This document shows positions 5,499 through 21,073 of a stretch of 34,173 bases of DNA, piece after piece; within the stretch, counting starts at the first letter, position 1, and each line of letters starts with the position of its first letter. The notes beneath the pieces are model-generated. The model did no database searches and was not told the DNA's origin. It saw only the letters and a list, made by a program, of their open reading frames with translations. The position numbers were made by a program, and so were the translations under genes. This DNA comes from Pseudooceanicola lipolyticus (GTDB taxonomy: Bacteria > Pseudomonadota > Alphaproteobacteria > Rhodobacterales > Rhodobacteraceae): contig NZ_PGTB01000033.1 in NCBI RefSeq assembly GCF_002786325.1, positions 1 through 34,173 of the forward strand. Reading direction: 5' to 3'.

Positions 5499-6728
5499 TC
5501 AAGCTGATCGCAGCTCTACCGGGACGGAGTCGAAGCTTCGCAAGTTATTGTTTAGCCGTTGGCGTACTGGGCCGCAGGGGGTTATGGTGCGGACCCGCTC
5601 GGCCAGCGCCTGCAAGATTAATTCACCCTCCATTCGGGCTATCATCTGGCCGATGCACATATGCACACCGTTGCCAAGGGCCAGCTGGGCCTGCGTTTTT
5701 CTATTGAGATCGAAAACATTTGGGTGCTCGAATGCATCAGGATCCCGATTGGCAGCGCCCAGCATAACGATGATCTTGTTGTTCGCCGAGACGACGCAAC
5801 CGTCGCCGAAATCGACGTCTTCCATCGTAAGTCGGCAGATGCTCTGAATTGGCGTTTCCAGTCGCATTGCCTCATCGAAAGCCACTCGGATCCTCTTCGG
5901 GTCGGCGCGAAGAGCCAGGTACTGGTCGGGCGCCTGCGCCAGATAGTGGATCGCTGCCGCGATCGTTGCAGACGTCGTGTCCAACCCACCCCGCAGGAAG
6001 GATCGGATCAGAAGCGGCGCAATTTCAGGTGCGATCTCTCCGCGATCGGCGGCTTCATAAATCTTCAGGCCAAACCCGCCTGGCAAAAGTGACTCGCGCT
6101 GCATCTGCTGGTTGTTCCAGTCCATGATCCGTGCGGCTTTGGCCTCGGTTTCCAGAAGTCGAGCGTTGCGCGGCCCCTGGCTGTCGAAGTTCAGGGCACC
6201 TAACAGAAACAGATTATCGCGCCGCTCGGGGCTGTCGGCCCAGCCGATTGCAGTGGGGAAAACTTCGGAGACGAAAACCTCGGCAAGATCGCCGACGGCG
6301 TCGATCGGACCGGCATCTACGAGGTCGTCAATCAACTTTTCAGCGCGGCCGCTAAATGCTTCACGCCATTCGCGGATGACCTTTGGCGTCAAGATTCGCT
6401 GCAACGCGGTACGCACTCTGGTATGGTCGGGGGGATCAACCTCCAGAATGGGGCTGGGCGCGCGCCAGGCATCAGGCGAGCGCACATCGGCAATGCCGGC
6501 CCCCGATGTGGATGAAAACCGTTCCCAATCCTTGAGGGCCCGTCCGACATCCCGGTGACGTCCCATTGCGAAAACGCCGTAGCGCGGCATGAATACCACC
6601 GGCCCAGCCTGCCGAACCTGATCGAACATCGCGAATGGACTTTCCAGCGTGGCGTCGTCATACGGATCGATATCGAGGCGCGGAATTGTGTCAGAAACGA
6701 CAACCTGGGTGCTACTGAGAAGGGGCAT
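5499..6728 (-). CDS. Cytochrome P450, CYP199-like
   Basis: This is a 409-residue soluble class I-type P450. Visible motifs are the I-helix acid-alcohol pair in GGLDTT (Asp250, Thr251), the K-helix ExxR (Glu286-Arg289), and the heme loop LGNGVHMCIG with ligand Cys358. The C-terminal half (ANRDPDAFEHPNVFDL, VHMCIGQMIARMEGE, RLNNNLRSFDSVPVEL) resembles the CYP199A family, which hydroxylates or O-demethylates para-substituted benzoates. An Arg-x-x-Ser (Arg89, Ser92) lies where that family holds the carboxylate, judged from memory. The usual Phe of FGxGxHxCxG is Leu351. The start at 6728 is preferred because AAGGAT lies 7 bases upstream; an ATG at 6746 has a poorer site. It is the last gene of the operon, 25 bp after the flavin oxidoreductase. 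No ferredoxin or ferredoxin reductase is encoded in the window. Substrate is inferred only. Confidence 0.9.
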   Translation of the reverse strand: MPLLSSTQVVVSDTIPRLDIDPYDDATLESPFAMFDQVRQAGPVVFMPRYGVFAMGRHRDVGRALKDWERFSSTSGAGIADVRSPDAWRAPSPILEVDPPDHTRVRTALQRILTPKVIREWREAFSGRAEKLIDDLVDAGPIDAVGDLAEVFVSEVFPTAIGWADSPERRDNLFLLGALNFDSQGPRNARLLETEAKAARIMDWNNQQMQRESLLPGGFGLKIYEAADRGEIAPEIAPLLIRSFLRGGLDTTSATIAAAIHYLAQAPDQYLALRADPKRIRVAFDEAMRLETPIQSICRLTMEDVDFGDGCVVSANNKIIVMLGAANRDPDAFEHPNVFDLNRKTQAQLALGNGVHMCIGQMIARMEGELILQALAERVRTITPCGPVRQRLNNNLRSFDSVPVELRSA

Positions 6729-6753
6729 GGCTCTATCCTTTTGCATCTGCTTC

Positions 6754-7863
6754 TCAACAAACCTTCAACGCGGGATCCGCCATCTGCCAGCCCGCCCAGG
6801 CCGGATGACCGGCCCGCTGGGCCTGCACCGGCAACGATGGGTTGGCCCCCAGCCGATATGCGGCCCACCAGCCCCAGCGAGGATTCGCCAGAAAGGCGCG
6901 GGCCAACGCCACCATGTCAGCCTTGCCCGAAGCGATGACATCTTCGGCCTGTTCCGGTGTGGCGATCATGCCAACGGCCCGCACTGGCATGCTGGTTGCG
7001 GACTTCACGGTTGCCGCAAAATCCACTTGGTAAAGCGGGCCCACCTCAACCTTTTGTGCGGGATCGATCCCGCCTGAGGTCACATCGACATAATCGCATC
7101 CGGCGGCCTCAAGTGAGCGCGCAAGGGCTACCGCATCCTGAGGGACTAGCCCGCCCTCGATCCAGTCGGATGCGGTGATCCGCATGCCAACTGCAACTTC
7201 GGGGGCTGCAGCACGGGTGGCCTGCAACACCTCGATCAGCAGGCGCATTCGGTTTTCGGAATTGCCACCGTAGTCGTCGGTGCGCTTGTTGGTCACGGGT
7301 GAGTGGAACTGATGCAGAAGATAGCCATGTGCAGCGTGTATCTCGATTAGGTCGATGCCGGCGCGAACAGCGCGCGCAGCGGCCTGGGCATGTGCGTCGA
7401 TCAGCGCGCGAATATCTTTAGGCTCCATCTCCCGCGGAATTGGTCCGGACCCAAGTGCTAGAGGCGACGGAGCCATGGTCGGCCATGCCCCCTCGGCAGA
7501 TGTCAGCGCCAAGCCGCCGTTCCAAGGGACTTGCATTGCCGCCTTGCGTCCGCCATGGCCGATCTGCACCCCCACCCGCGCCGGTCCAACCGCGCGCAAT
7601 AGCGCGACCGTCTCCGCCAGCGCGGATTCGGTCCTGTCGTCGTACAGTCCGCAGTCGCCGTGCGAGCATCGGCCCTCGGCAGTGGGTGAAGTCATTTCGA
7701 TCATGACCAGACCCGCCCCGGAATTGGCCAATCCGCCCAGATGTGCCTTGTGCCACTGGCCGTGCGCTCCATCTTCGGCGCTATATTGCGCCATAGGGGC
7801 GACCACCAGGCGGTTGTTCAGCTTCAAGGGGCCAAGTTCAATCGGAGAGAACAGTTCGCTCAT
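6754..7863 (-). CDS. Old Yellow Enzyme family oxidoreductase (YqjM class), Cys-to-Ala variant
   Basis: This is a 369-residue NADH:flavin oxidoreductase/OYE TIM barrel. The FMN enzyme normally reduces C=C bonds conjugated to carbonyl or imide groups. Visible are the N-terminal FSPIELGPLKLNNRLVVAPM, the active-site pair His176/His179 in HAAHGYLL, the RTDDYGG loop, and the phosphate-binding ADMVALARAFLANPRW. The redox-tuning cysteine of YqjM-type enzymes (APMC) is Ala25 here (APMAQYS), unlike the paralogue at 18259. The start codon overlaps the acylase stop by 4 bp (ATGA), so translation is probably coupled. Members can also be demethylases or dehydrogenases in catabolic pathways, and the reaction direction cannot be told. 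Confidence 0.92.
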   Translation of the reverse strand: MSELFSPIELGPLKLNNRLVVAPMAQYSAEDGAHGQWHKAHLGGLANSGAGLVMIEMTSPTAEGRCSHGDCGLYDDRTESALAETVALLRAVGPARVGVQIGHGGRKAAMQVPWNGGLALTSAEGAWPTMAPSPLALGSGPIPREMEPKDIRALIDAHAQAAARAVRAGIDLIEIHAAHGYLLHQFHSPVTNKRTDDYGGNSENRMRLLIEVLQATRAAAPEVAVGMRITASDWIEGGLVPQDAVALARSLEAAGCDYVDVTSGGIDPAQKVEVGPLYQVDFAATVKSATSMPVRAVGMIATPEQAEDVIASGKADMVALARAFLANPRWGWWAAYRLGANPSLPVQAQRAGHPAWAGWQMADPALKVC

Positions 7864-10232
7864 TTCGTGTCCACTGCTATCAGCGTAATACGCTGGGAAA
7901 CGGCGGCATCGATGGCCGCGTCAGAATACAGAAAGGGAACGTATTCACCACGCGCCCATGGCTCGAAGAGGTTATCGTAGAATGGGCTTCGCGGGTCGCC
8001 CGACTGCCCCGGGGCAGTGATGCAACGCGACTTATCCCAGTCCCCCACATCCAGCACGAACCTGACCGAAGCTCCCGTGGTCACGCGAAAGTCGCTTTCA
8101 CGATACGCGGCATGCATGATGGTCGAGGCCGACCCGGGCTTGGGCGCGGGTCCGACGTCGGCCAGATCGATCCAGTTAGAGCCGAGATCGCGGGATAGGG
8201 GATGTTCGAAATAAGCATGGTGCAACTTGCCCCACGCCCATGTCGATGTATCGGGTCCGAATTTCTCCGTCAAATCGTACAGCGTTCCACGCAATGTGCT
8301 GGCTAGCAAGGAGTTGCGACCGGCCTCAGGGTCTGGGCCAAAGGGTGCGGTGGGAGTTTCCAACGCTGACAGCAGTCCTTCGACGTCACCGGGAAAAAGC
8401 AGCCCGTGCAAAGCCGGATCGGGAACGAACAGGCTGAAAAGCGCGGGCTTCAGCCGTTTGTGGAGCCACCATTCCTGGATCAGGCCGGCGGTTGACCCGA
8501 CTGAAAGCATGCAATCCCAGTCCAGCAAAAGCTTGATGATGGCGGCCAATTCCGGGTCGCTTTTGATCTCGGCCGTCCGCAACAGTTTTTGCAGGCGCAT
8601 CCCCGGCCACGAGAACGTGTCCGTTTGCAGAGCACAACTTTCATCCAGACTGTGGTCCTCAGAGTTTCCCAACACATCGTGGAGGCGCAGAGCGCGGCTT
8701 TTTTCCAGCCATTCATAGCCGATCTGAGTGATTTCATGCTGCCAGTCGTCTGGAAGGTTCGCCTCGTTCGCGGAGGCGACATATCGCGTTTCCGGATTCA
8801 CTTGGCTTGGCATCTTGTCCAACGGTACCATGCCATCCCACTCAAATTCGCCATTGCCGGGGACGGGCAACAGGCCGTCCCATTCAGGTCGCACCGGGGT
8901 GAAGCCGTAGGGCAGCCATGCGATATTTCCCGAGGTATCCGCGTACACATGGTTCAGCGCCGGGGCACCAAACCGGGCAACACCTTCGCGGAACTCGTCG
9001 AGGTCGCGTGAACGCATGGTGGAGACACCAGCCAGGTAGGCGCAGGTCCCCGGCTCCCACCAGACCGATCGCAATGCATAGGCGCGGGACTTCTCGGGTT
9101 GAGCCAGCAGTACGGGACCGTGGCGGGTAAACAGCAGGTCATGCGTCTCTGTCGCATGGCCGCGGATCTCAAATTCCTCGGGAATTACGGTCATCGCCTC
9201 CCAGGCATCTGCGAAGCGATATTCCAAAGGGTTATCCGGGTTGGTTTCGTATTGATAAATGTCTTCCTGGTCCGAGCCGAAGATCGTCGCCGTGAAAGCG
9301 CAGGTGCCGTTGTGCCCCATGCACAACCCAGGTGCGATCGGTTCGCCGGTGCCAATTACATTAAAGCCCGGGGTGCGCAGATGCACCAAGTACCTCAAAG
9401 CCGGAACTGCGTGCATTCGGTGCGGATCTCCGGCGATCACCGGACGTCCAGTCGAAGTTCGCGCCCCCGCCACAGCCCAGTTGTTTGACCCTGTCCAATG
9501 CGCGTCCTCGATGACCTCGGCCAGTGAATTCACAAAGCGCCACTTTGAAGCCTCGGCCCGGGTGGCATTCAGGCGACCCGGGTCGAAGCTGACGCCGGCT
9601 GTAGCGAGCTTGAAGCGCTCCAGCACCTCTAAAGGCACATCTTCGAATTCGATACCGCCTGCATTCCTGGGGGTCACACGAGGCTCGAGATTCTTTCGGA
9701 GCAAATCGGCTTCGGCCGTAGCTTCCGACAGGACAACACAACGCAAAACCTCGGAAATCGCGTTACGGGTCAAAGCGTGGCTGCGGATGCGTACGACATC
9801 CTCTGGCTGCCACTTTTCGGGCTTAGATCCGGTCTTGTCGAATTCCGGCGGTAGCCGCTCCGGCTCGGCCGCACACAGATCGATCCACGCATTGATGCCG
9901 GCGACGAAAGCTGTGCAGATCTCCTCCATGTCATCGGCATAAGCGCGATACTCGGCCTCGATATCGCCACGATACAGAAAAGCGCGGGCCGCGATGTCCT
10001 GCTCAAGAAATCCGGGGCCGAACGAAGCGGCCAGCCTGCCCAGCCCGCGCTTGCGCCAAAGGTCCATCTGCCACAGCCGGTCGCGCGCAGCATTGAACCC
10101 TTGGAGATAGAAGCCATCCATGGTGGACCGGGCGCGCAGATGGGGAATACCCCACGTGTCGATCAGAATCTCGGCATCGCTCTGCAATCCACTGACCTGC
10201 AGCGTTTCGTCCTCAAGGGCAAGGTCTTTCAT
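7860..10232 (-). CDS. Penicillin acylase family Ntn-hydrolase (peptidase S45)
   Basis: This 790-residue precursor belongs to a family that hydrolyses amide bonds of acyl or arylacyl amides (penicillins, N-acyl homoserine lactones, other amides). The N-terminal part has the family signature IDTWGIPHLRA and GFNAARDRLWQMDLWRKRGLGRLA. The autocatalytic cleavage site is HWTGSNNWAVAG, with Ser249 as the predicted nucleophile and first residue of the beta chain. Further family-like stretches are PVIAGDPHRMHAVPALRY and YVASANEAN. Unlike the periplasmic penicillin G acylases and AHL acylases, no signal peptide is seen. The chosen start MKDLALEDET at 10232 leaves only a short leader, so a cytoplasmic enzyme is inferred. 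The ribosome site before 10232 is weak; the frame is open further upstream but reads as the antisense of the preceding gene. It lies 62 bp after the imidase-like gene and is fused by ATGA to the OYE gene. Confidence 0.9.
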   Translation of the reverse strand: MKDLALEDETLQVSGLQSDAEILIDTWGIPHLRARSTMDGFYLQGFNAARDRLWQMDLWRKRGLGRLAASFGPGFLEQDIAARAFLYRGDIEAEYRAYADDMEEICTAFVAGINAWIDLCAAEPERLPPEFDKTGSKPEKWQPEDVVRIRSHALTRNAISEVLRCVVLSEATAEADLLRKNLEPRVTPRNAGGIEFEDVPLEVLERFKLATAGVSFDPGRLNATRAEASKWRFVNSLAEVIEDAHWTGSNNWAVAGARTSTGRPVIAGDPHRMHAVPALRYLVHLRTPGFNVIGTGEPIAPGLCMGHNGTCAFTATIFGSDQEDIYQYETNPDNPLEYRFADAWEAMTVIPEEFEIRGHATETHDLLFTRHGPVLLAQPEKSRAYALRSVWWEPGTCAYLAGVSTMRSRDLDEFREGVARFGAPALNHVYADTSGNIAWLPYGFTPVRPEWDGLLPVPGNGEFEWDGMVPLDKMPSQVNPETRYVASANEANLPDDWQHEITQIGYEWLEKSRALRLHDVLGNSEDHSLDESCALQTDTFSWPGMRLQKLLRTAEIKSDPELAAIIKLLLDWDCMLSVGSTAGLIQEWWLHKRLKPALFSLFVPDPALHGLLFPGDVEGLLSALETPTAPFGPDPEAGRNSLLASTLRGTLYDLTEKFGPDTSTWAWGKLHHAYFEHPLSRDLGSNWIDLADVGPAPKPGSASTIMHAAYRESDFRVTTGASVRFVLDVGDWDKSRCITAPGQSGDPRSPFYDNLFEPWARGEYVPFLYSDAAIDAAVSQRITLIAVDTK

Positions 10233-10294
10233 TACACGGGTCCAGTCCGGTTGTCTGTGACGGTCCCGGGTTGTCCGAGACCGGAGCGTTTGGT

Positions 10295-11128
10295 TCAAGC
10301 GGCTTCGGGTTCGCCGGCAGCGATCCAGGCCTCGGCGACTTCCGTTCCGGTCGCGAACCATACGTTGGGGAAAGTGCGGATAAAGGCGATCAGCTCGCGC
10401 AGCATCGCGATTCGCGAAGGACGGCCAGTGATTTGCGGGTGAAAGATGATGTTGTACAATCCGCCCCAACGGTACAGTTCCCGAAACTCATCTTTGTAGA
10501 TGGCCAGCAAGTGTTGGTTGGGAAACATCGGGCGGGGGCTCGCGACGGAGAACAGCGCGTAGGGCGCATCGTCCAGCGACCAGTGCCATGGAAGCTCTAC
10601 CGGGCCTTTGGAACCGTCTTCGAACCGATGGCGATAGGGCATTACATCATTCATCAGGGACGAATTGTACAGCATCTCGTGTTGCGCCAGCAATGTGAAG
10701 AGGCCCGAACTGACTTCACCTGCCGGCGACCGGTATCCGCGCGGACGAATACCCAAGACCTTATCGAAGGCCTCAAGGCCCCGTTCGAATTCCTCGACTT
10801 CTGCAGCGGGATCGTCCGACACCCAGCGGTGCGAGTACGAGTGGTGCGCCACCTCATGGCCCGCCTTCACCACCGCCTCACAGCGCTCAGGATGGTTTTC
10901 GACGGTCCATCCAGGGATGAAAAAGGTGCTTTTGACCCCGGCGTCGGCGAGCGTATCAAGTATCTTCGGCACCCCCACCTTGGCACCGTATGTCCCTTGG
11001 CTCAGGATACCGGGGCGCGCGGCGTTGGCCTTGTCCCGCGAGGTCCACAGCGTTTCGGCGTCGAAATCAAAGGTCAACATAACGGCACATCGGGCACCAT
11101 TGGGCCATTTCACTGAAATATCGTGCAT
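10295..11128 (-). CDS. Polysaccharide-deacetylase-fold hydrolase, PuuE/cyclic-imidase-like
   Basis: This 277-residue protein has the NodB-type deacetylase fold: TFDFDAE (Asp21, Asp23), the metal-binding HSYSH (His96, His100), and the arginine motif RSPAGE. N-terminal CAVMLTFDFDAETLW, absence of a signal peptide, and FHPQITGRPSRIAML near the C-terminus point to the cytoplasmic branch that includes PuuE allantoinase and bacterial cyclic imide hydrolases, rather than chitin or peptidoglycan deacetylases. A C-N ring-opening hydrolase is therefore likely; exact substrate unknown. The start is set by a strong AGGAGG six bases upstream of 11128. It sits 19 bp after the dehydrogenase and before the acylase, so two different amide/imide hydrolases are adjacent in the operon. 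Confidence 0.85.
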   Translation of the reverse strand: MHDISVKWPNGARCAVMLTFDFDAETLWTSRDKANAARPGILSQGTYGAKVGVPKILDTLADAGVKSTFFIPGWTVENHPERCEAVVKAGHEVAHHSYSHRWVSDDPAAEVEEFERGLEAFDKVLGIRPRGYRSPAGEVSSGLFTLLAQHEMLYNSSLMNDVMPYRHRFEDGSKGPVELPWHWSLDDAPYALFSVASPRPMFPNQHLLAIYKDEFRELYRWGGLYNIIFHPQITGRPSRIAMLRELIAFIRTFPNVWFATGTEVAEAWIAAGEPEAA

Positions 11129-11147
11129 CGTGATCCTCCTATAGGGC

Positions 11148-11912
11148 TCATTCGGTCGAAAATGGCGCGTGTCGCGTGGCCAGGAAGCCACCATCAACCG
11201 GCAGGACCGCCCCAGACACGAAGGAGGCCTCGTCAGAAGCCAAAAAGGCAATGACGGCAGCCTGTTCGTGGGGCTGTGATATGCGGCCCAACGGGATAGG
11301 CGCGACCTGCAGCTGCCGGTATCGCGAGCTTTTCAGGTGTTCCTGCGTCATTTCCGTGGCAACGACACCGGGCGCGATGGCGTTCACGGTTATGCCCTTG
11401 GGCCCCAGTTCGGTGGCCAATTGGCGGCTGAACTGGGCGATTCCGGCCTTGGCCACACCATAGCCGATGGTTCCCGCATTGCCGATCATTCCGAAGATGG
11501 AACTGACGTTGACGACCCGTCCGCCGGGACGACGCAGACGTGGCGACAGGTCGCGGGTCAGGCTGATAACGGCCCGAAGATTCACTTCGATCAGCCGAAG
11601 CAGATGTGCATCATCGGAGTCGGGTAAAAGCCGCGAACCGCCGATGCCGGCGTTGTTCACCAATATGTCCAGCGGACCAACGTCCATCCCGTCCAATTGT
11701 GCCAGCACACTGGCGGAAGCGCCGGGCTCCGCCAAGTCCAGAATCAGGCCCGTCTGGCCCATTGCATTGGCTGTTTCTTCGACTTGGTCCAACTGGTCGA
11801 CAAGAAGGACACGCGCACCATCCTGCGATAAACGCAACGCGGTAGCGGCACCGATGCCCCGCGCCGCACCAGTAACAACGGCAGTTCGACCTGCGAAACG
11901 CGGTTTAGGCAA
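11148..11912 (-). CDS. Short-chain dehydrogenase/reductase, TTG start
   Basis: A classical 254-residue SDR. Visible are the NAD(P)-binding TGAARGIG, the structural LVNNAGIGG, the catalytic VSSIFG serine and YGVAKAG (Tyr-x-x-x-Lys), and the C-terminal SGAVLPVDGGF. The Asp after beta-2 (VLLVDQ) favours NAD(H). The best start is TTG at 11912. It follows GGAGG at a spacing of 5 and overlaps the upstream dehydrogenase stop by 8 bp, exactly as that gene overlaps the ATPase gene. The longer frame to 11969 would overlap deep into the neighbour. It probably oxidises an alcohol intermediate of the pathway; the substrate cannot be read from sequence. Confidence 0.88.
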   Translation of the reverse strand: MPKPRFAGRTAVVTGAARGIGAATALRLSQDGARVLLVDQLDQVEETANAMGQTGLILDLAEPGASASVLAQLDGMDVGPLDILVNNAGIGGSRLLPDSDDAHLLRLIEVNLRAVISLTRDLSPRLRRPGGRVVNVSSIFGMIGNAGTIGYGVAKAGIAQFSRQLATELGPKGITVNAIAPGVVATEMTQEHLKSSRYRQLQVAPIPLGRISQPHEQAAVIAFLASDEASFVSGAVLPVDGGFLATRHAPFSTE

Positions 11913-12675
11913 GGCGTCCTCCGTCGATCGGAAGCGCGATACCGGTGGTGAATGACGCGGCATCACCAAGAAGATAGCTCACGGCGGCGGCGACCTCGTC
12001 AGGTTCTCCCATACGTCCCATCGGATGGACCGCGGCAATGCGGCGCCGACGTTCAGCTTGGGCTTCGGGCCCATTCGCGAATGCGATACTGGATTCTAGC
12101 ATCGGTCCGGCGATGCTGCCGGGGCACACACAATTGATGCGGATGTTCTGATCCGCGTGGCTGAGCGCCAGCGTGCGGGTCATCATGACCACGGCGGCCT
12201 TGGTGACCGAATACAAAGGCACATCGGCCGAGGCCTGCATGCCAGCGGTAGATGAAAACAGGACAACCTCGCCCGCGCCACCGATCTTCATCTGGGGAAT
12301 AATGGCCTTACAGATCCGCCAGACAGCGCGGACATTCAGGTTGAAAAGGCTGTCAAATTCATCCTCGGTCACGTCGATCAAGGGCTTCATTGGACCAAAC
12401 AGCCCCGCAGTTGCCACCAGCCCGCGTACGGGTCGGTCAAATGCCCGTGCAGAAAAGTCGGCCAGCTTATCGACCGTCTTGCCGTCTGCTACGTCGCCGA
12501 CAAAACCTTTTGCGCCTGGGCATTTCTCCAGCGTCCCCTCCAATGCTTCGACAGACAGATCAGCAAGGACAAGATCAGCGCTGAGAGCGGACAAAGCCTG
12601 CGCTGTTGCACGCCCAAGCGCCCCGCCCGCGCCGGTGATCAGGATCGTCCGTCCTGCCAAATCCGCATTAGGCAT
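11905..12675 (-). CDS. Short-chain dehydrogenase/reductase with atypical NNAG motif
   Basis: A 256-residue SDR with TGAGGALG cofactor loop, LADLS (Asp after beta-2, favouring NAD), catalytic FSSTAG and YSVTKAA, and the C-terminal TTGIALPIDGG. The usual NNAG is ATAG (LVATAGLFG), a change seen in some divergent SDRs. The start at 12675 has AGGTGGAG upstream, and its ATG overlaps the ATPase stop by 8 bp (ATGCCTAA), so it is translated in step with the transporter. It is followed by a second SDR with the same overlap. Two SDRs in a row suggest successive oxidations or a pair of stereospecific enzymes (inference). Confidence 0.88.
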   Translation of the reverse strand: MPNADLAGRTILITGAGGALGRATAQALSALSADLVLADLSVEALEGTLEKCPGAKGFVGDVADGKTVDKLADFSARAFDRPVRGLVATAGLFGPMKPLIDVTEDEFDSLFNLNVRAVWRICKAIIPQMKIGGAGEVVLFSSTAGMQASADVPLYSVTKAAVVMMTRTLALSHADQNIRINCVCPGSIAGPMLESSIAFANGPEAQAERRRRIAAVHPMGRMGEPDEVAAAVSYLLGDAASFTTGIALPIDGGRLA

Positions 12676-14329
12676 TGGTGGGCTCCACCTTGGGGCGCGT
12701 CTTTGACGCAGTAGCATTCGTAGCGCTGCTTCGCAGAGCCGTATCGCCGCCTGGGACCGAGGCAAAGAGTTGGCGCGTGTAGCTGTGCTGGGGTGCGCCA
12801 AACAGATCGGCGGCGGGCTGAAGCTCGACTACCTCACCTCGCTGCATGACTGCGATACGGTCGCAGATCTGGGCCGCCACTCGTAGATCGTGGGTCACGA
12901 ACAACATGGCCAAGCCCAACCTTTTTTGAAGGTCGGCCAGTAGTTTCAGAACCCGGGACTGGACCGAAACATCGAGGGCCGACACCGCTTCGTCCGCGAT
13001 CAAAAGGGCGGGTTTCAAGGCAATGGCTCGCGCGATCCCGATGCGTTGACGCTGTCCGCCGGAAAACTCGTGCGGATAGCGGTCTGCGGCCTGCTCAGGC
13101 AAGCCGACCAGTTTCAGCAATTCGCGCGCTTCCTTCATGGCCACTTCCCTGCTTAGGCCATGAGTCTCCGGACCTTCGGCAATAATCCTGCCAACTTTCC
13201 GCCGCGGGTTCAGCGAGGCGTAGGGGTCCTGAAACACCATCTGGATCTTCGACCGTGCTTGGCGGAGCTCAGCCGACCTGAGGTCAAGAAAGGAAGTTCC
13301 GTTGATCGAGACCTTACCGGATTCCGGTTCGATCAGGCGTACGATACACCGCGCGGTCGTCGACTTACCCGAACCGGATTCGCCCACAATACCCAATGTT
13401 TCGCCACAGCGGATTTCCAACGATACATCGTTGACCGCCTTGACCAACCGCCCGTTACCAAACATGCCTTTCCGACCGAAAGTTTTTTTTAGGTTGCTGG
13501 CCTTCAGCACTGTTGGCGCATCACCCAAGGGTCGCGGAACTGGGGGAATCAGCGACGGTACGGACGCAATCAGCGCCTTGGTATAGTCGTGCGTGGGCTG
13601 GTTCAGCACCACATCGGCCGGCCCCTGTTCCACTGCAATACCCTGCTGGAGCACCACAACCTTGTCGGCGATTTCGCGGACCACCCCGAAATCGTGCGTT
13701 ATCAGCATGACAGAGGTGCCGTGATCACGCCGCAGGCGGTCGATCAGCTTCAGGATCTGGGCCTGAGTAGTCACATCCAGCGCGGTTGTAGGCTCGTCCG
13801 CAATTAACAACTTGGGACTTAGGGCAAGGGCCATTGCGATCATGACGCGCTGGCGCTGCCCGCCTGACAATTGATGGGGGAAAGCCTTGGCGATTAACCT
13901 GGGATCTGGCAGCCCCATTTCTTCCAACAGGGCTTCGATGCGGGAACGGGTGACTTTGGACTTCTGGCCGTGAGCCATGAAAACCTCTTCCATCTGGTCC
14001 CCGATCTTCATCACCGGGTTCAGTGATGTCATCGGTTCCTGGAAGATCATGCCGATGTCACGGCCGCGAATGCGCTGCATCGCTGCGGTGTCGGTGACTG
14101 GAACTTCGGTTCCCGAGAGGCGGATACTACCGCCCGCTACCTTCACCGTATCCGGCAGCAACCCCATTACTGCGTGGGCGGTCATGGTCTTTCCCGACCC
14201 GGATTCCCCGACCACGCACATGGTTTCTCCTGTTTTTATGGTCACCGAGAATTTCTCGACGGCGTGGGCCCGATCCGAGTTCGCGGGAAGCGCTATCGAC
14301 AGGTCGGTGATCTGAAGAACGGCAGTCAT
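12668..14329 (-). CDS. Fused double ATPase of a peptide/opine-type ABC importer (DppDF-like)
   Basis: One 553-residue chain carries both nucleotide-binding domains of an oligopeptide-type importer. Domain 1 has Walker A GESGSGKT (41-48), Q-loop FQEP, signature LSGGQRQ and Walker B LLIADEP. Domain 2 has Walker [10 protein letters not shown] (316-324), signature FSGGQRQ and Walker B LLIADEA followed by VSALD. Each repeat carries the family-specific C-terminal region ([12 protein letters not shown] and [12 protein letters not shown]). Usually these are two proteins (DppD and DppF); the fusion is common for this family in alphaproteobacteria. The ATG at 14329 overlaps the permease stop by 4 bp (ATGA), with a purine-rich ribosome site AAGGGGA upstream. 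It energises uptake of the substrate processed by the downstream enzymes. Confidence 0.93.
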
Positions 14330-15168
14330 TTCCGTCCCCTTTCCTTTAAACGAGGATTGAGGAAATCGTTCAGACCCTCGCCCACAAGGTTCAGGGCAAG
14401 CACCGTCAAAAGGATGGCGACCCCGGGAAAGAAGCTGATCCACCAGCCATCGAGAAGTCTGGTTCGCCCGGCGCCGACGACGTAGCCCCAGGTCATCATG
14501 TCTGGGTCACCAAGCCCGAGAAACGACAGCGCTGATTCTAGCAATATCGAGCTCCCGACCATGAGAGAGGCCATCACGATCAGCGGTGCAATCACGTTCG
14601 GCAATACCTGCGTGAAGAGGATCCGGGTCGATGTTTGCCCGATTACAATGGCAGCTTGCACATATTCCCGCGACCGTAAGCTCAACACCTCGCCGCGCAC
14701 CAACCGCGCGACGGGCGGCCAACTGACAATAGATATCGCCATGATGATCGACAGGAAACTCGGCTCCAAAATGGCGACGATCACGATCGACAGGGCAAAG
14801 GCGGGAATAGTCTGGAAGAACTCAGTGACGCGCATCAGAATGTCGTCGGCCCAGCCACCGAAATAGCCTGCCATCGCACCGATCGGCACACCGATCAGCA
14901 GCGATACGACAGTGGCCACCAGTCCGACAATCAACGACGCGCGTGCGCCATGAAAAACAGCTGAGGCAACGTCGCGACCCAACACATCGGTGCCAAAAAG
15001 GTACCTGCCGGAAAAAACCTCTGGCGGGATCATCGGCCTGGCCACCATACGCCAGGGACTTTGCGGAAACAGCAGTGGGGCGGACAGGGCGCAGCCGATG
15101 ATAACCACCAGCACGACCAGGCCGATGAAGCCACCACGATTTCGGGCGAAATGTCTAAGCGATCTCAT
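14326..15168 (-). CDS. Peptide/opine-type ABC permease (DppC-like)
   Basis: This 280-residue inner-membrane permease has a DppC-type N-terminus (MRSLRHFARNRGGFIGLVVL) with one helix and a large loop (GTDVLGRDVASAVFHGARAS). The binding-protein-dependent transport domain follows, with about five further helices. The ATPase-coupling EAA loop is recognisable (RSREYVQAAIVIGQTSTRIL). The start at 15168 overlaps the stop of the upstream permease gene by 4 bp (ATGA). The next gene starts with another ATGA. It pairs with the DppB-like subunit to form the channel. Confidence 0.92.
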   Translation of the reverse strand: MRSLRHFARNRGGFIGLVVLVVIIGCALSAPLLFPQSPWRMVARPMIPPEVFSGRYLFGTDVLGRDVASAVFHGARASLIVGLVATVVSLLIGVPIGAMAGYFGGWADDILMRVTEFFQTIPAFALSIVIVAILEPSFLSIIMAISIVSWPPVARLVRGEVLSLRSREYVQAAIVIGQTSTRILFTQVLPNVIAPLIVMASLMVGSSILLESALSFLGLGDPDMMTWGYVVGAGRTRLLDGWWISFFPGVAILLTVLALNLVGEGLNDFLNPRLKERGRK

Positions 15169-16142
15169 CGGGCGATCTCGATTCGGGGATCTGCAAAGCG
15201 ATAAAAAAGATCCGTAATGATGTTGAATAGTACGACCAGCGCCGAGCAGACGAAAAACACCCCCAAAAGCACCTGGTATTCTCGTTGCATCAGGGCGTCG
15301 AACAACAGCCGCCCAATGCCAGGCCAAGCAAAGATAGTTTCGATCAGCACTGCACCACCAACGATCTGACCAGCTTGAAGGCCCGCCAGCGTGACTACCG
15401 GCAGAATGGCGTTGCGCGCTATGTGTCGGCGCGTGATGTATCCTTCGCCTAGCCCCTTGGCGCGGGCGGTCTTGATAAAATCTGCGCCCGCGATTTCGAG
15501 GGTCGAAGCGCGCATGATCCGAGCGTAAAGCGCCGTGTAAAAAAGGCCCAGCGTTGTCGCGGGTAGGATGAGATGGCGGCCGACGTCGATGATATGCGCC
15601 CAACCGGAGTAGTTCGCGCCGACCGTGGCATAGCCGATGTTGGGCAACCAGCCCAGTTTTAGCGCGAACAGGACCTGGCCTAGAAGGGCGATCCAGAACA
15701 GGGGCATCGCGTAGAAGATCAGCGCAAATATTGTGATCAACGTGTCTTGCAGGGTGCCGACCCTGCGCGCCGCCAGAACCCCCAAAACCACCCCCAGTAT
15801 CAGCGACACGACGAAAGCTGTGCCCGTCAGCAGCAAAGTGGCAGGGAGACGCTCGGCGATCATGTCCAACACGGTACGGTTGTTGCGGGCCGAATGCCCC
15901 AGGTCCAGCGTAGCGATACCCTTCATGTGGATCCACAGCTGTTCGATCACCGGCTTGTCCAGTCCAAACCGTTCACGCAGTTGCGCGATGTACACAGGAT
16001 CGGCCGCTCCAGATTCACCCGCCAGTACACTGGCCGGATCGCCGGGGGCGATGCGGATGAGGAAAAAGTTCATCACGGCGATCGCCAGAAGGACTAGTAT
16101 GCCCTTTAAAACGCGCGTCAGGGTGAAACGGAGAGTATCCAT
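15165..16142 (-). CDS. Peptide/opine-type ABC permease (DppB-like)
   Basis: A 325-residue membrane protein with the DppB pattern: first helix and amphipathic signature (LAIAVMNFFLIRIAPGDPA), then the periplasmic LRERFGLDKPVIEQLWIH region. The transport domain carries the EAA loop (KTARAKGLGEGYITRRHIARNAILP) and ends in FYRFADPRI, typical of this subunit. The ATG at 16142 is chosen over a TTG at 16199 because homologues start just before this helix; the ribosome site (GAGG close to the start) is modest. It is separated from the binding-protein gene by 63 bp containing a hairpin, which may set the stoichiometry of transporter parts. Confidence 0.9.
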   Translation of the reverse strand: MDTLRFTLTRVLKGILVLLAIAVMNFFLIRIAPGDPASVLAGESGAADPVYIAQLRERFGLDKPVIEQLWIHMKGIATLDLGHSARNNRTVLDMIAERLPATLLLTGTAFVVSLILGVVLGVLAARRVGTLQDTLITIFALIFYAMPLFWIALLGQVLFALKLGWLPNIGYATVGANYSGWAHIIDVGRHLILPATTLGLFYTALYARIMRASTLEIAGADFIKTARAKGLGEGYITRRHIARNAILPVVTLAGLQAGQIVGGAVLIETIFAWPGIGRLLFDALMQREYQVLLGVFFVCSALVVLFNIITDLFYRFADPRIEIAR

Positions 16143-16172
16143 CGGCCTCAATCCAGGGGGTACAGGCAGGTC

Positions 16173-16197
16173 GTCCTCGCCCGGTTCGGACGAGGAC
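16173..16197 (-). terminator. Intercistronic hairpin between binding protein and permease genes
   Basis: GTCCTCG (16173-16179) pairs with CGAGGAC (16191-16197) around an 11-base loop. No T-run follows on the minus strand. Such hairpins after the binding-protein gene commonly protect its mRNA or cause partial termination, giving more binding protein than permease. The role is inferred from position. Confidence 0.4.
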
Positions 16198-16205
16198 AAG
16201 GCGGA

Positions 16206-17777
16206 TCAGTCGTCTATCCATGCTTTCAAAAGGCCATCATTGGCCCCCGAAGCGGTGGTTATGTACTCTTTGACATTGCAATGGGTGACCGTCGGGAAGT
16301 TCACATCCACCGACCACAGGGCCGGCATCTCGTCCGCGACCATCTCGTGGATCTGCTTGTAGATTGCCGGGCGGTCGGCCGCAGGGGCTATGGCGCCTTC
16401 TTCCCACAGTGCGTCGATCTCGGGGTTCGCATAGCCACCAATGTTCGAGAACGGGTTGCCGACATCAATGGTCGAAGACACCCACATCCGTGCCACGCCC
16501 AACGCCGGGTCACCGTATTGGTAGGTCCAGTTGTTGGTTATGTCAAAGTCGCCCGAACTGGCACGCTGGTTCCAACCGGCAGGGTCGGTCGCGATCATCT
16601 TGATATTCACGCCGACGTCATTGAAATTCTGGCGGGCAATCTCGGCAGTCCGGATCCAATTTTCGCCATATGGCGTTGGCATCAAACGCAGCTCCTCTCC
16701 ATTATAGCTGGAGGCCTCGATCAACTCGCGCGCTTTGTCCGGGTCGAATTCATAAGGATAGTCTGAATTTTTCGGGAAGAATTTGGTCCGAGGGGAGATT
16801 GGGCCGGTGCCGATTTCACCGTAGCCGCCCCAGACAACGTCCCGGATGAATTCCGTGTCCAGCGCATACATCAACCCCTGACGAAATGTCTTGTCGGCCA
16901 AAGGTCCAGACCGAACATTCAACTGGAAATATGATTGAGGCGCAAAGAGCTCCCAGCCTTCTGTGGTGACGCAGACGTTGTCGACCTTTGACAAGCGCTC
17001 CACATCCGCGCTTTCCAATGAACCTCCGGTCATCACGTCGACTTCGCCGGTTTCGAAGGCAATCGCCCTGGAGGCAGCATCAGGGATGAACCTGAAAATC
17101 GCTCCGTCCAGGCGAGGCAAGCCATCTATATAGTAGTCCTCGTTTTTGACCAGTTCGACATGCGACCCATTCACCCACTCTTTGAATTTCATCGGGCCGG
17201 TGCCGATAGGCGAGTTGTTCATTGGGTTTGCGGCAATGTCAGTCCCCTCATAGATATGAGCAGGAACGATAGGCATTGACCCGTTTTCAAATACCATAAG
17301 CACAGGATCGAAGATGTGCTTGAGCGTAAGGGTGACTTCGAATTCACCCGTTTTCTCGATTTTCTCAACATGGTCGGCATTGATGGTTCGCCAACGCGGG
17401 TTTACCTGCAGCAAGAAGTCTGTGAGCGAAAACATCACGTCATCTGCCGTGAAAGGTGTGCCGTCATGCCAGGTCACGCCTTCACGGATTTTGAAGGTGT
17501 AGATTGTTTCACTGTCGTCGACCGTCCAGGATTCGGCCAGAGAGGGTATCGGCTCAAGTTCAGGCGAGAATCGCAGCAAAGATTCCAAGATGTTGCCCGA
17601 AACCATCTGCGTCGGAGTGTTGGTCACAAGACCAGTTAGCAGGCTGGGCGGTTCCGGCGTGACGACCACCTGAAGGACCCCACCTTGCTTGGCTTCCTCT
17701 TGGGCATAGGCAGCTAGGGCCACCACTGATGCCAAGGCAGAACTGAGAAGCACGTTTCTAAGAGACACTGTGAGCAT
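16206..17777 (-). CDS. Extracellular solute-binding protein, family 5 (peptide/opine type)
   Basis: A 523-residue periplasmic receptor. The start at 17777 (AGGGA seven bases upstream) gives a typical signal peptide: MLTVSLRN, then a hydrophobic run (VLLSSALASVVALAA), with predicted cleavage after AYA. The in-frame ATG at 17798 has no ribosome site and would lengthen the polar leader. Family hallmarks are the LAESWTVDDSETIYTFKIREGVTWHDGTP region, TGPMKFKEW, and FRQGLMYALD. It delivers substrate to the DppB/C-like channel. Family members bind peptides, opines, glycosides or nickel; which one cannot be told. It is the first gene of the catabolic operon, so its promoter in 17778-18258 drives the whole unit. 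Confidence 0.92.
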   Translation of the reverse strand: MLTVSLRNVLLSSALASVVALAAYAQEEAKQGGVLQVVVTPEPPSLLTGLVTNTPTQMVSGNILESLLRFSPELEPIPSLAESWTVDDSETIYTFKIREGVTWHDGTPFTADDVMFSLTDFLLQVNPRWRTINADHVEKIEKTGEFEVTLTLKHIFDPVLMVFENGSMPIVPAHIYEGTDIAANPMNNSPIGTGPMKFKEWVNGSHVELVKNEDYYIDGLPRLDGAIFRFIPDAASRAIAFETGEVDVMTGGSLESADVERLSKVDNVCVTTEGWELFAPQSYFQLNVRSGPLADKTFRQGLMYALDTEFIRDVVWGGYGEIGTGPISPRTKFFPKNSDYPYEFDPDKARELIEASSYNGEELRLMPTPYGENWIRTAEIARQNFNDVGVNIKMIATDPAGWNQRASSGDFDITNNWTYQYGDPALGVARMWVSSTIDVGNPFSNIGGYANPEIDALWEEGAIAPAADRPAIYKQIHEMVADEMPALWSVDVNFPTVTHCNVKEYITTASGANDGLLKAWIDD

Positions 17778-18036
17778 TTTTGTTTCCCTATTGGTCATTT
17801 GAATCGGCCTTTTCGCCAGCTTGAACTGGACTGTTTTCGCCTGCCGTTCGGCAGTGGCACGAGTTGCTTGGTATTGCTGTATTCTTCCCACCTGCCAGAC
17901 ACGCCGTACCGAGTTTCTGCCCCGTCCGGCCCTTCTTGAGATCGAAGGTCGAAGACGGAGGATCATTAGGGCGACAAACTGCGGAGACCCCACTATTTGG
18001 TACGGAAGAATTGAATAGCGATACCTTCATGTCATT

Positions 18037-18066
18037 ATTCGTTGCATCCTGTTTTCGTTCTGTCAA
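18037..18066 (-). promoter_or_regulatory. Candidate promoter for the transporter/enzyme operon
   Basis: A consensus TTGACA on the minus strand (18066-18061) is followed after 18 bp by ACGAAT (18042-18037), a poor -10. It overlaps the plus-strand candidate, so the two could compete. The leader to the binding-protein ATG would be about 250 bases. Confidence 0.3.
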
Positions 18067-18070
18067 TAAT
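18042..18070 (+). promoter_or_regulatory. Candidate promoter for the second OYE and IclR genes
   Basis: A -35-like TTGCAT (18042-18047) and a -10-like AATAAT (18065-18070, five of six matches to TATAAT) are separated by 17 bp. They would give a leader of about 180 bases before the ATG at 18259. The pattern was found by eye and is weak at -35. Confidence 0.35.
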
Positions 18071-18097
18071 CTTTGTGTCAGTCAGTTCGCACTGATC

Positions 18098-18133
18098 CGA
18101 GTGCCGTTAACTCGACCGGACAGCGGAACCGCT
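18098..18133. promoter_or_regulatory. Inverted repeats, candidate IclR operators
   Basis: Two palindromes lie close together: CGAGT-7 bases-ACTCG at 18098-18114, and AGCGG-AA-CCGCT at 18122-18133. IclR proteins bind short palindromes near the divergent promoters they control, and these lie just downstream of the plus-strand promoter candidate. No experimental consensus is available to match. Confidence 0.3.
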
Positions 18134-18258
18134 TGGCATAATCGGCAAGCCCTGACCCCAAATCCTGGGGCTCCCTGGCGACGTCAGAATGGAAATATAT
18201 GTCTACTTACAAAGCCTTATCCGAAAGATGGGGCCTTGCACGATTGAAGGAGCTCTTT

Positions 18259-19356
18259 ATGTCGACTCAAATGTTTGAGCCAATCAAGCTTGCAGATGTC
18301 CAATTGAAGAACCGCGTGGTGCTCGCCCCGATGTGTCAGTACAGTGCCACGCCTCAAGGGAGCGTAACGGATTGGCATTTCGTCCACTGGGCGCAGTTTC
18401 TACTGGCCGAGGCCGGTCTGCTCATTATTGAAGCGACGGGCGTGCAACCGCAGGGGAGAATCACATCAGCCTGCGTTGGGCTGTATGACGACGAAAACGA
18501 GGCTGCGCTGAAGTCGGTGCTGGAACGGGTGCGTCCCTTCGGCGATGCCCCGATCCTATTGCAGTTAAGCCACGCGGGCAGAAAGGCAGCACAGCCCGTT
18601 CCGGGAGCAGATGAAAAGCAGGGGGAGATAATCAACGATAAATGGCTGGTCGAAGGACCGTCGCCTATCGCCTTTGGGGATGGCTGGCAGGTTCCTCACG
18701 AAATGAGCGAAGCAGAAATTGACGCGCTGGTGGTGGCTTTTGGCGAGTCGGCACAGAGAGCGGTTCGGGCGGGCGTTCAAGGTATCGAGATTCATGCCGC
18801 CCATGGCTATCTTCTCAGCAGTTTCCTGTCACCTTTGGCCAACCGGCGGACTGATGCATACGGCGGTTCGTCTGAAAATCGAAGACGCCTGCCACTGCGT
18901 GTCTTCGACGCGGTGCGGGAAGCGTGTCCACTCGGCATGCCCGTCGGAATGCGGATAAACGGCACCGACTGGTCCGAAGGCGGCATAACCCTGGAAGATG
19001 CCATCGACCTTGCACGTGCACTGGCAGATCGCGGCTGTGACTTCCTCGACGTTTCGACCGGCGGCAATGCACATGCGCGCATACCGGTTGGCCCCGGCTA
19101 TCAGTTGTCATTTGCCGATGCAGTGCGCCGAGCCTCCGGTCTTCCTACTATTGCAGTGGGCATGATTCGTAGCCCGCTGCATGCCGAAGCCATCATTTCC
19201 TCGGGCCAGGCTGATATGGTGGCGCTCGGCCGGGGCTTTCTAAATAATCCGCGCTGGGTTTGGCATGCAGCCGAGTCACTCGGCGTTGATCTGGAAGTGG
19301 CGCAGCCGTATGCATTTGGCGCAACCTCTGCCTACAGACCGACGCGTGGTCGCTGA
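18259..19356 (+). CDS. Old Yellow Enzyme family oxidoreductase (YqjM class)
   Basis: This 365-residue FMN-dependent ene-reductase/NADPH dehydrogenase-type barrel has all class hallmarks. These are Cys26 in APMCQYSA (the redox-tuning cysteine), QLSHAGRKA, the substrate-binding pair His179/His182 in HAAHGYLL, RTDAYGG, and the FMN phosphate site ADMVALGRGFLNNPRW. The start at 18259 has AAGGAG six bases upstream; the longer frame from 18199 has none. It is a paralogue of the operon's OYE at 6754, which lacks the cysteine. It is followed after 30 bp by an IclR gene, so it is probably co-regulated with the cluster. Confidence 0.93.
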   Translation: MSTQMFEPIKLADVQLKNRVVLAPMCQYSATPQGSVTDWHFVHWAQFLLAEAGLLIIEATGVQPQGRITSACVGLYDDENEAALKSVLERVRPFGDAPILLQLSHAGRKAAQPVPGADEKQGEIINDKWLVEGPSPIAFGDGWQVPHEMSEAEIDALVVAFGESAQRAVRAGVQGIEIHAAHGYLLSSFLSPLANRRTDAYGGSSENRRRLPLRVFDAVREACPLGMPVGMRINGTDWSEGGITLEDAIDLARALADRGCDFLDVSTGGNAHARIPVGPGYQLSFADAVRRASGLPTIAVGMIRSPLHAEAIISSGQADMVALGRGFLNNPRWVWHAAESLGVDLEVAQPYAFGATSAYRPTRGR

Positions 19357-19386
19357 GTTGGCGCATCACACAATGCCGGAGGCCCT

Positions 19387-20172
19387 ATGATCAAGCACCG
19401 ATATCCGCAGGTCGACGAAAACTTGCGCGTGAAGACCGCCGACCGGGTTCTTGATGTCCTGGAGTGTTTTGCCGCGCCGCCAAATCAAAAGTCGCTTGGT
19501 GAAATTGCAGCGGCAACCGGTATCAACAAAAGTGCGGTTCAACGTATCTGTCGCACCCTGGTCGGGCGCGGTTATTTGGAACAGAGCCAAGAAGCGCGGC
19601 TGCGGCTCGGTCCGGCTCTGCTGGAGCGCTCCTTTGATTTCCTTCGCTTTAACCCCCTGATCGAAAGGGGCAGTCCCATTCTGCTCGACCTGCGGCGTGA
19701 AACGAAAGAGCGAGTCGACCTCAGCTTATTCGATCCTTACCATGACAACCTGTCAATTATATACGCCTTCCGGCTGCAGAGTAAGCGGGAAACACTGTAT
19801 GCCACTCTGTCAGGAAGGCGCTTTCCGGCGGCAAGCACCTCTGGGGGGCGCGCATGCATGGCGCATCTGCCTGATCAGACCATTGACGAGATCATAGATT
19901 TGTCAGACCTGAAACGGATCACGCCTCAGACCATCATTGACCCAGAGGGCATATGGGAAAAGATCCGCTTTGGGCGCGAGCATGGTTATTGCCTTGCTGT
20001 GGAAGAGGCGCTTCTGGGCGAGATCGTGCTGGCCGCCGCCGTTCTGAACAGCCACGGCCAGCCTATCGGCGCAATTCATATCGCCGGATCGCTGAATACA
20101 TGGACTCCGCAGGATTTCTGCGACCGCTTTGCCCCTCTTGCAATGTCTGCCGCGCAAGCCATCAGCGGTTGA
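19387..20172 (+). CDS. IclR family transcriptional regulator (first of two)
   Basis: A 261-residue protein. The N-terminal winged helix spans about residues 17-65 (TADRVLDVLECFAA, SLGEIAAATGINKSAVQRICRTL, GYLEQ). The C-terminal GAF-like effector domain spans about residues 80-260 (GRRFPAASTSGGRACMA, GIWEKIRFGREHGYCLAVEE, GAIHIAG). IclR proteins control aromatic and other catabolic operons by sensing a pathway compound. GGAGG lies four bases before the ATG. The gene lies between the second OYE and a second IclR gene, next to the divergent operon that it probably controls. Confidence 0.92.
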   Translation: MIKHRYPQVDENLRVKTADRVLDVLECFAAPPNQKSLGEIAAATGINKSAVQRICRTLVGRGYLEQSQEARLRLGPALLERSFDFLRFNPLIERGSPILLDLRRETKERVDLSLFDPYHDNLSIIYAFRLQSKRETLYATLSGRRFPAASTSGGRACMAHLPDQTIDEIIDLSDLKRITPQTIIDPEGIWEKIRFGREHGYCLAVEEALLGEIVLAAAVLNSHGQPIGAIHIAGSLNTWTPQDFCDRFAPLAMSAAQAISG

Positions 20173-20257: not shown

Positions 20258-21073
20258 ATGGCAAAGTCCGGCCCTACCAAAAGGGACGTTGCTGTTCCTC
20301 ACCCGCGAGTTGATCGCGAGGGCCTAGACGAAAGACTTTATCTTCAATCCCTCGGGCGGGCGCTGGATGCTCTGGACACCTTCGGTTCTGCCCATCGCGC
20401 CAAGTCTCTGAATGAGATCGCATCCGATCTGGGTGTCACCAAGAGCGCAGCACAACGCACCGTCTATACCTTGCTTGCGCATGGGTACCTCGAGAAGGCA
20501 AGCGGCACAGGGTACCGGCTTGGGCGGCAGGTGCTATGCAACAGCTTCAATTTTTTGCGGATGGATCCTTTGGTCCAACGCGCAGCCCCCGTACTGACGC
20601 AGTTGAGACAAGCCTCGAACGAGCGGGTTGACCTGACCCTTTTCGAAGAAACCACGGTGATCTACGCGCTAAGGTATCAAAGTAAACGTGAAAGCTTGCA
20701 TACAGCCCTTTTGGGTCGCAGGTTGCCCTCGTTTTTGTCGGCTGGAGGACGAGTTTGCCTAGCCAACCTGTCCGACGAGGTCGTAGACGACATTCTCGCA
20801 AACTCAGAACTGATCGCCTCGACGCCACGCACCATCACTAGCGTGCCGGAGATCTGGTCGAAGATCACCGCAGCCCGCGAAGACACCTACGCATTCGCTC
20901 AGGAAGAGGCCGTAATGGGGGAAGTCGAAGTTGCCGCAGCAATTTTGGATCAGAGCGGTAAACCGGTCGGCGCCGTCCATATCTCGGGACTGTTGAGCGA
21001 TTCCGATGAGAGTTCGTTTCGAGCCCAGTTCGCCCCACTCGTGCTTGAGGCTTCGAGGGTACTGGGAGCTTAG
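20258..21073 (+). CDS. IclR family transcriptional regulator (second of two)
   Basis: A 271-residue paralogue of the preceding gene. The winged helix (LGRALDALDTFGSA, SLNEIASDLGVTKSAAQR, HGYLEK) is preceded by a longer polar leader. The effector domain follows (LLGRRLPSFLSAGGRVCLA, EIWSKITAAREDTYAFAQEE, GAVHISG). The two regulators align along their full length, so they arose by duplication and may respond to different intermediates. The ATG at 20258 has only a weak ribosome site (GCGAG); a TTG two codons earlier is possible. The 85-bp gap to the first IclR gene allows co-transcription. Confidence 0.9.
   Translation: MAKSGPTKRDVAVPHPRVDREGLDERLYLQSLGRALDALDTFGSAHRAKSLNEIASDLGVTKSAAQRTVYTLLAHGYLEKASGTGYRLGRQVLCNSFNFLRMDPLVQRAAPVLTQLRQASNERVDLTLFEETTVIYALRYQSKRESLHTALLGRRLPSFLSAGGRVCLANLSDEVVDDILANSELIASTPRTITSVPEIWSKITAAREDTYAFAQEEAVMGEVEVAAAILDQSGKPVGAVHISGLLSDSDESSFRAQFAPLVLEASRVLGA

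Follow-up and report, generated by a model that had tools for sequence, protein, structure and literature searches.

The locus described here lies in bases 1-34173 of contig C255 (hereafter the window, i.e. the whole stretch of 34,173 nucleotides that was analysed) of the Pseudooceanicola lipolyticus genome, which comprises 5.2 Mb in 439 contigs. Ten minus-strand genes (5499-17798) are separated by intergenic gaps of only −59 to +63 bases and are therefore likely to form one operon, from which the genes for a second Old Yellow Enzyme (OYE2) and two IclR regulators (18259-21073) diverge across 460 bases; this intergenic region is likely to serve as control region for both directions. Read from 17798 down to 5499, the operon encodes a substrate-binding protein (SBP), two permeases, a two-domain ATPase, two short-chain dehydrogenases (SDR1 and SDR2), a NodB-fold hydrolase, an S45 acylase, OYE1 and a P450 (Table 1). 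Pfam and NCBIfam scans of the window proteins confirmed each named family in its place, and the original prediction, which had listed an importer of the peptide type, an S45 hydrolase, two SDRs, an OYE, a P450 and a divergent second OYE, thus describes a real set, including the Opp/Dpp type of the importer. The set runs past position 19356, since both composition and relatives place the two IclR genes (19387-21073) within it. We propose, with a probability of about one half, that the thirteen genes were acquired horizontally and form an inducible module for the catabolism of a carboxylate-bearing nitrogen-ring compound, with a logic like that of the fungal hxn route of nicotinate breakdown.

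Table 1 Features of the thirteen-gene locus and its divergent intergenic region, with the evidence for each assignment.
Feature	Position	Strand	Evidence
Substrate-binding protein, periplasmic, SBP_bac_5 (Opp/Dpp type)	16206..17798	-	Pfam 1.8e-80; hydrophobic N-terminal stretch; 40.6% to Sulfitobacter indolifex plasmid SBP
ABC permease 1 (OppB/DppB type), BPD_transp_1	15165..16142	-	Pfam 2.4e-39; 58% to L034
ABC permease 2 (OppC/DppC type), BPD_transp_1	14326..15168	-	Pfam 1.1e-29; 58% to L034
Two-domain ABC ATPase (Opp/Dpp type)	12668..14329	-	Pfam ABC_tran x2, oligo_HPY
SDR1, adh_short, YSVTK at 155	11905..12675	-	Pfam 1.1e-46
SDR2, adh_short, YGVAK at 168	11148..11963	-	Pfam 3.2e-55
NodB/CE4-fold hydrolase, Polysacc_deac_1, FDFDAE 20-25, HHSYSH 95-100; candidate cyclic-imide hydrolase	10295..11128	-	Pfam 5.8e-20
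S45 Ntn acylase, Penicil_amidase, D-succinylase-like	7860..10232	-	Pfam 1.3e-183
OYE1, Oxidored_FMN, HAAHGYL at 176	6754..7863	-	Pfam 3.5e-63
CYP199-type P450, haem Cys364	5499..6746	-	p450 family; 42% to CYP199A4
OYE2, Oxidored_FMN, divergent	18259..19356	+	Pfam 2.4e-69; 59% to L034 OYE
IclR regulator 1, PcaR/PobR-like by best model, under cut-off	19387..20172	+	Pfam; TIGR02431 143.6 bits of 284.75
IclR regulator 2	20258..21073	+	Pfam; 44% to IclR regulator 1
Divergent intergenic region, 460 bases	17799..18258	.	Coordinates

The NodB-fold protein is a candidate cyclic-imide hydrolase, a function to which its fold kinship and its partner genes point. By sequence as well as by structure it is nearest to 3rxz, with HP0310, PuuE and 3s6o close behind, and among solved chains ranked by sequence, 3rxz of M. 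smegmatis (39.4% identity) is followed by HP0310 of Helicobacter pylori (3qbu; 27.5%). With both proteins it shares the metal-ligand motifs and an ELPxxWxLDD-type motif. AAY98498, the cyclic imide hydrolase of P. putida YZ-26, and its kin HxnM (64.2%), for which HP0310 is the closest reported structure (passages of PMC9304392 on HxnM), appear to belong to the same fold group as the window protein, to which we liken them by fold and not by sequence identity. The label "PuuE-like", which the protein had carried, had to be dropped. Its score for the PuuE model TIGR03212 is 86.4 bits at a cut-off of 424.6 (relatives: L005, 79 bits; L034, 107.5 bits), while the PuuE-side proteins of loci L008, L009 and L044 reach 303-354 bits, likewise under the cut-off. 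The active site of PuuE, unlike that of HP0310, is described as lacking a metal in the relevant part of PMC3084791; in our alignment, PuuE-type proteins show N-Y-E-E type and HGWRW motifs where the window protein retains FDFDAE and HHSYSH. In the tree the window protein falls outside the PuuE-type clade, which is represented by L008, L009 and L044 together with part of a 3s6o chain rather than by PuuE itself (3cl6, 1z7a). The branches of 3rxz and 3qbu in this tree are long and the bootstrap is unsettled, so that the exact placement of these two is unsure. Score, metal-ligand motifs and tree placement together led us to reject a PuuE allantoinase. A second hydrolase of the NodB-fold type is encoded elsewhere in the same genome (G000:C247:12318-13073; 39% identity), besides two less similar ones at 29%.

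The assignment of the acylase to the S45 Ntn hydrolases was confirmed and could be sharpened. Its nearest solved chain is the D-succinylase 7eby (E 1.1e-200, 671.9 bits, 42.7% identity over 783 columns), and the next match is the glutaryl-7-ACA acylase beta chain (6e-52, 179.9 bits, to which the alpha chain adds 72.8), level with penicillin G acylase at 2.4e-50. The beta chain starts at Ser249 (GSNNW) and has His at beta23. The protein thus shares the S45 Ntn fold, Ser beta1 and GSNNW with the D-succinylase of Cupriavidus sp. P4-10-C (7eby, 7ea4), from which it differs by its operon with an imidase-type hydrolase. Judged from the hydropathy of the N-terminus, the window acylase has no evident signal peptide, which is why we regard it as probably cytosolic and acting after import. 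D-succinylase cleaves N-succinyl-D-amino acids, and an acylase of this kind would fit the proposed pathway, since a ring-opened N-substituted imide is an omega-carboxyacyl amide. Action of D-succinylase on D-amino acids is also mentioned in a section of PMC11241749.

At E 1e-180 or better, such an acylase occurs in 13 of 395 genomes of the family, the own genome included; the hydrolase adjoins it in three of these and does not lie within the stretches read in nine, while L056, a 3.8-kb contig, is uninformative. In a tree of 16 acylase rows, the proteins of the window, L039 and L040 fall into a single clade (100/99) and the Sulfitobacter acylase groups with L073 (96/95), so that linkage to the hydrolase needs two changes, both forced by starred branches, which may represent two separate gains or one gain combined with one loss. 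The hydrolase tree likewise explains acylase linkage best with two changes, only one of which is forced, its bootstrap being unsettled. As a separate recurrent set, loci L066, L067, L069 and L072 combine a D-succinylase-like acylase with Opp permeases and a two-domain ABC ATPase (54-55% identical), with an IclR-type gene in three of the four and, by eye, an M81-type peptidase in L066.

CYP families are delimited by an identity above 40%, and by this rule the P450, which is 42.0% identical to CYP199A4 over 393 columns, falls within CYP199, as its earlier description as CYP199-like implied. In CYP199A4 the substrate carboxylate is held by R92, S95, R243 and S244 (binding-site passages of PMC11854964). 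The haem Cys and these four residues (R95, S98, R248 and S249 in the window) are common to the window P450 and CYP199A4/CYP199A2, and the anchor is also kept in both linked relatives, but the phenyl-packing face is altered in all three linked P450s (F185Q, S247R and A248G in CYP199A4 numbering). From this combination we conclude that the residues suggest a substrate which carries a carboxylate and is more polar than benzoate. L98 of the same numbering, which like F185 and A248 belongs to the phenyl-packing residues, is kept in the window protein and is V in both relatives; position 298, where the CYP199A4 structure row carries a Val that we take to be an engineered variant, was not used and nothing was drawn from it. 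No ferredoxin gene was found among the ten operon genes.

OYE1 and OYE2 are 47% identical and both carry HAAHGYL, with Ala in OYE1 and Cys in OYE2 in the motif PM(A/C)QYS; by their nearest structures (8pun and 5ocs for OYE1) both are of the YqjM/XenA-like class. YxxxK is present in both SDRs, of which SDR2 is a candidate for the oxidation of a hydroxylactam to an imide. The OYE and SDR families do not fix the substrate.

The G+C content at third codon positions (GC3) is 0.60-0.70 in the thirteen genes versus 0.79-0.88 in the flanks, where twelve genes were measured (eleven to the right and orf1 to the left, most flank names being assigned by eye), for which reason the thirteen genes look like one acquired block. 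At the right edge (window 21073-21584), between IclR regulator 2 and a class II aldolase gene, GC3 steps from 0.60-0.70 to 0.83. The aldolase (21584-22372) was considered as a pathway member and rejected because of its host-like GC3 of 0.83 and because a homologue at 40% occurs in none of the 21 hydrolase-centred loci introduced below. A tRNA-Leu(gag) gene (23424-23510, minus strand) lies about 2 kb beyond the right edge with its 3' end pointing to the block, but integration at this gene is unproven, as no second exact copy of at least 16 bases of the 3' end was found elsewhere in the window. When the operon DNA was compared to plasmids by megablast, the 19 records obtained matched over only 41-407 bases each, all inside the ATPase gene. 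On the left flank, two overlapping short open reading frames (4375-4832, plus strand) resemble tyrosine recombinase fragments by eye and have no hit in Pfam with E values up to 0.1, and the protein encoded at 261-2135 (minus strand) combines a right-handed beta-helix region with a laminin-G-like domain and is possibly active on extracellular polysaccharides.

Relatives were sought with the NodB-fold hydrolase as probe. A scan of genome contigs yielded five loci, in Phreatobacter (76%), Bradyrhizobium nitroreducens (73%), Rhodobacteraceae HLUCCA12 (63%) and two further cases at 24-26%. Counting the own genome, the hydrolase was found at E 1e-60 or better in 7 of 395 family and 16 of 385 class genomes and at 1e-95 in 2 of 398 phylum genomes; two of 43 genomes of another order contained it at 1e-100. 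From a plasmid search with 609 records five were examined, a sixth examined plasmid being an acylase match. The search for the same set in other genomes, which the original prediction had put forward, succeeded: the Sulfitobacter indolifex plasmid NZ_CP084953 encodes acylase, IclR, two permeases, ATPase, SBP, hydrolase, two SDRs and OYE in one run, the shared content being 41-59% identical, and differs by lacking the P450, by its gene order and by an acylase from another tree branch. The near-complete cluster is carried by S. indolifex DSM 14862, a strain from seawater. A large part of the set is present in L039, a genome of the same family, with SDR2, acylase (60%), an importer which by eye is of the branched-chain type, SDR1, hydrolase (76%), P450 (60%) and IclR (60%). 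P450, IclR, both SDRs and hydrolase lie together in Phreatobacter (L005), and IclR, both SDRs, hydrolase and SBP on a Roseomonas marmotae plasmid (L033). From the content of these four loci we conclude that the importer is exchangeable and that the core consists of IclR, SDR1, SDR2 and the hydrolase, often with an amide hydrolase and sometimes with a P450 or an OYE. Since the same gene types recur in distant Alphaproteobacteria and share their GC3 in the window, the set is more than a product of chance.

For a quantitative view we scored 21 loci centred on the hydrolase and 6 to 29 kb long, fetched with long flanks and thus not a random sample, at thresholds of our own choice (40% or more for the SDRs); the short-flank matches L015, L016, L025-L031, L052 and L075 were left out. 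Partners were SDR2 in nine loci (L034, at 41.5%, fell short of the coverage limit), IclR in eight, SDR1 in seven, S45 acylase in three, P450 in two and OYE in one. Eleven acylase-centred control loci (ten from the family search and one plasmid) contained IclR once, those of L066 and L069 remaining under the threshold at 41-43%, and neither SDR, P450, OYE nor hydrolase. Beside the hydrolase, a second amide hydrolase was present in seven of the 21 loci, the other 14 not being scanned with models gene by gene: the three S45 acylases, an adjoining amidase-signature protein in L035 and L037 (E 1e-93, 5e-89) and an adjoining AAT-family protein in L007 and L047 (E 4.5e-12, 1.4e-9), that of L007 being C45 (217.5 bits, cut-off 85). 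Some of these loci also contain HyuA/HyuB-like genes by annotation or by eye.

Several relatives have further neighbours. In Phreatobacter (L005:11069-14784) an acetolactate-synthase-like thiamine pyrophosphate enzyme and an isochorismatase-family hydrolase come after the NodB-fold hydrolase, and then, by eye, a nucleobase-type permease; this locus perhaps serves another substrate through the same imide step. In Bradyrhizobium nitroreducens (L006:743-8770) the neighbours are a luciferase-like monooxygenase, an FAA hydrolase and a metallo-beta-lactamase-fold protein, together with an aldehyde dehydrogenase that best fits the model of succinate-semialdehyde dehydrogenase, with a score under the cut-off, which hints at a C4 product. 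The cluster on a Bosea sp. plasmid (L036), with creatininase-family, LLM monooxygenase, AtzE-type and arginase-family genes beside the hydrolase, looks like one for ureide or N-heterocycle breakdown.

Families, operon form, shared composition, recurrence and residue states are observed, and the reactions that follow, with their order, are inferred. The Opp-type ABC importer would take in the intact compound, which the P450, with its CYP199 carboxylate anchor, would hydroxylate or dealkylate. One or both OYEs could then saturate a maleimide- or pyridone-type ring double bond, where present, and one SDR would turn a hydroxylactam into the cyclic imide, the other being used for a side alcohol or aldehyde. 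The NodB-fold enzyme would open the imide and so yield an N-substituted succinamate or glutaramate, as fold kinship and partners suggest, and the D-succinylase-like acylase would cut this omega-carboxyacyl amide to succinate, glutarate or hydroxyglutarate and an amine, with expression presumably controlled by the IclR proteins. The reduce-then-open route of the original prediction thus gains partial support and is sharpened; among the enzymes near the hydrolase the OYE is the least conserved.

By enzyme logic, compared by kind of enzyme and not by sequence, the closest described system that we found is the hxn nicotinate route of Aspergillus nidulans (HxnT, HxnW, HxnM, HxnN), which shows the enzyme kinds that we propose for the cluster, and in the same order: as far as the pathway sections of PMC9304392 describe it, an OYE-type alkene reductase, an SDR making the cyclic imide, a NodB-fold cyclic imidase and an amide hydrolase, with monooxygenases upstream, the substrate nicotinate being processed via 3-hydroxypiperidine-2,6-dione. 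It differs in being fungal, in an amide hydrolase (HxnN) nearest to FAAH1 instead of S45, in monooxygenases (HxnX/HxnV) likened to NicC and 3-hydroxybenzoate hydroxylase instead of a P450, and in the transporters HxnP/HxnZ instead of an Opp-type ABC importer (same sections of PMC9304392); HxnS is without counterpart among the thirteen genes. The original prediction had recognised no described pathway with this set; for bacteria, our searches of open-licence papers yielded none, the only match for an OYE and imidase cluster being hxn.

Among the competing explanations, a rather unlikely one regards the NodB-fold enzyme as a small-molecule N-deacylase or deformylase. This enzyme and the acylase would each strip a different acyl group from an N-acylated substrate, an amine or an amino acid, and the carbon part would be left to P450, SDRs and OYEs for breakdown. 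Deacetylases are numerous in the fold family, the nearest chain 3rxz has no known activity, and the HyuA/HyuB-, AtzE- and creatininase-type neighbours of relatives indicate merely some C-N bond. Moreover, in the structural ranking of the predicted model, ArnD, a deformylase by name, is the first row beyond the group of 3rxz, HP0310, 3s6o and PuuE, and HP0310 is tied with 3s6o without separation from the PuuE side. These two results slightly lowered our confidence in the proposed module and slightly raised that in the deacylase reading. However, the model is 6.5 Z units nearer to the said group than to the next row, although length may explain part of this, and the second, unrelated amide hydrolase (S45, C45 or amidase) in 7 of 21 loci suits consecutive imide and amide hydrolysis better than deacylation.

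Breakdown of a 4-methoxybenzoate-like carboxylate, aryl or hetaryl, in which the P450 would O-demethylate, SDRs and OYEs would process ring or side chain and the hydrolases would only remove an amide-linked group, appears still less probable. Besides the intact anchor of the P450, it can draw on the best model of the IclR regulator (PcaR/PcaU/PobR) and on the match of both OYEs to the OYE part of the salicylyl-CoA 5-hydroxylase/oxidoreductase model, all under the cut-off, but a plain CYP199A benzoate demethylase was kept only as a competing reading, because the phenyl pocket is changed in all linked P450s. In addition, Pfam scans found neither a ring-cleavage dioxygenase nor a CoA ligase among the thirteen genes, and a P450 is near the hydrolase in just two of the 21 loci. 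That the genes came together on an island by chance and share no pathway, to which the varying transporter type, OYE and P450 of relatives and the seven of 21 loci without any scored partner would be congenial, is very improbable in view of the common codon composition, the operon spacing and the near-complete content of the Sulfitobacter plasmid. Hardly credible, finally, is that the acylase inactivates or scavenges beta-lactams or acyl-homoserine lactones (AHLs), as S45 membership and likeness to penicillin G acylase might imply, since the acylase is nearest to D-succinylase, a kinship on which an AHL or penicillin acylase was rejected (PvdQ far behind; PvdQ model NF051460 41.5 bits, cut-off 950), a signal peptide is not evident, and SDRs, OYEs, P450 and hydrolase would be left unexplained.

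Returning to the hxn-like module, we tentatively suggest, as a possibility about which we remain doubtful, a bacterial route in which an imported ring with an N-substituent and a carboxylate becomes a cyclic imide through the action of P450 and SDR, and the imidase and a cytosolic D-succinylase-type Ntn acylase then free the amine. On several occasions the imidase would have gained a further amide hydrolase as its partner (S45 apparently twice, besides C45 and amidase), and the pair would serve generally as a module for lactams and imides of natural or man-made origin. Tetrapyrrole maleimides, N-substituted pyrrolidones, pyridinium carboxylates and Maillard pyrroles were considered as substrates, none of which we claim.

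Imides and lactams are found in drugs, fungicides and solvents, and bacterial genes for their breakdown would therefore be of practical use. If the proposed module is true, misnamed "polysaccharide deacetylase" neighbours of catabolic transporters would gain a testable function, cyclic-imide hydrolysis, and a natural role would be suggested for D-succinylase-type acylases. The fungal hxn logic, i.e. to reduce or oxidise to an imide, to open it and to cleave, would then exist in bacteria as a mobile module.

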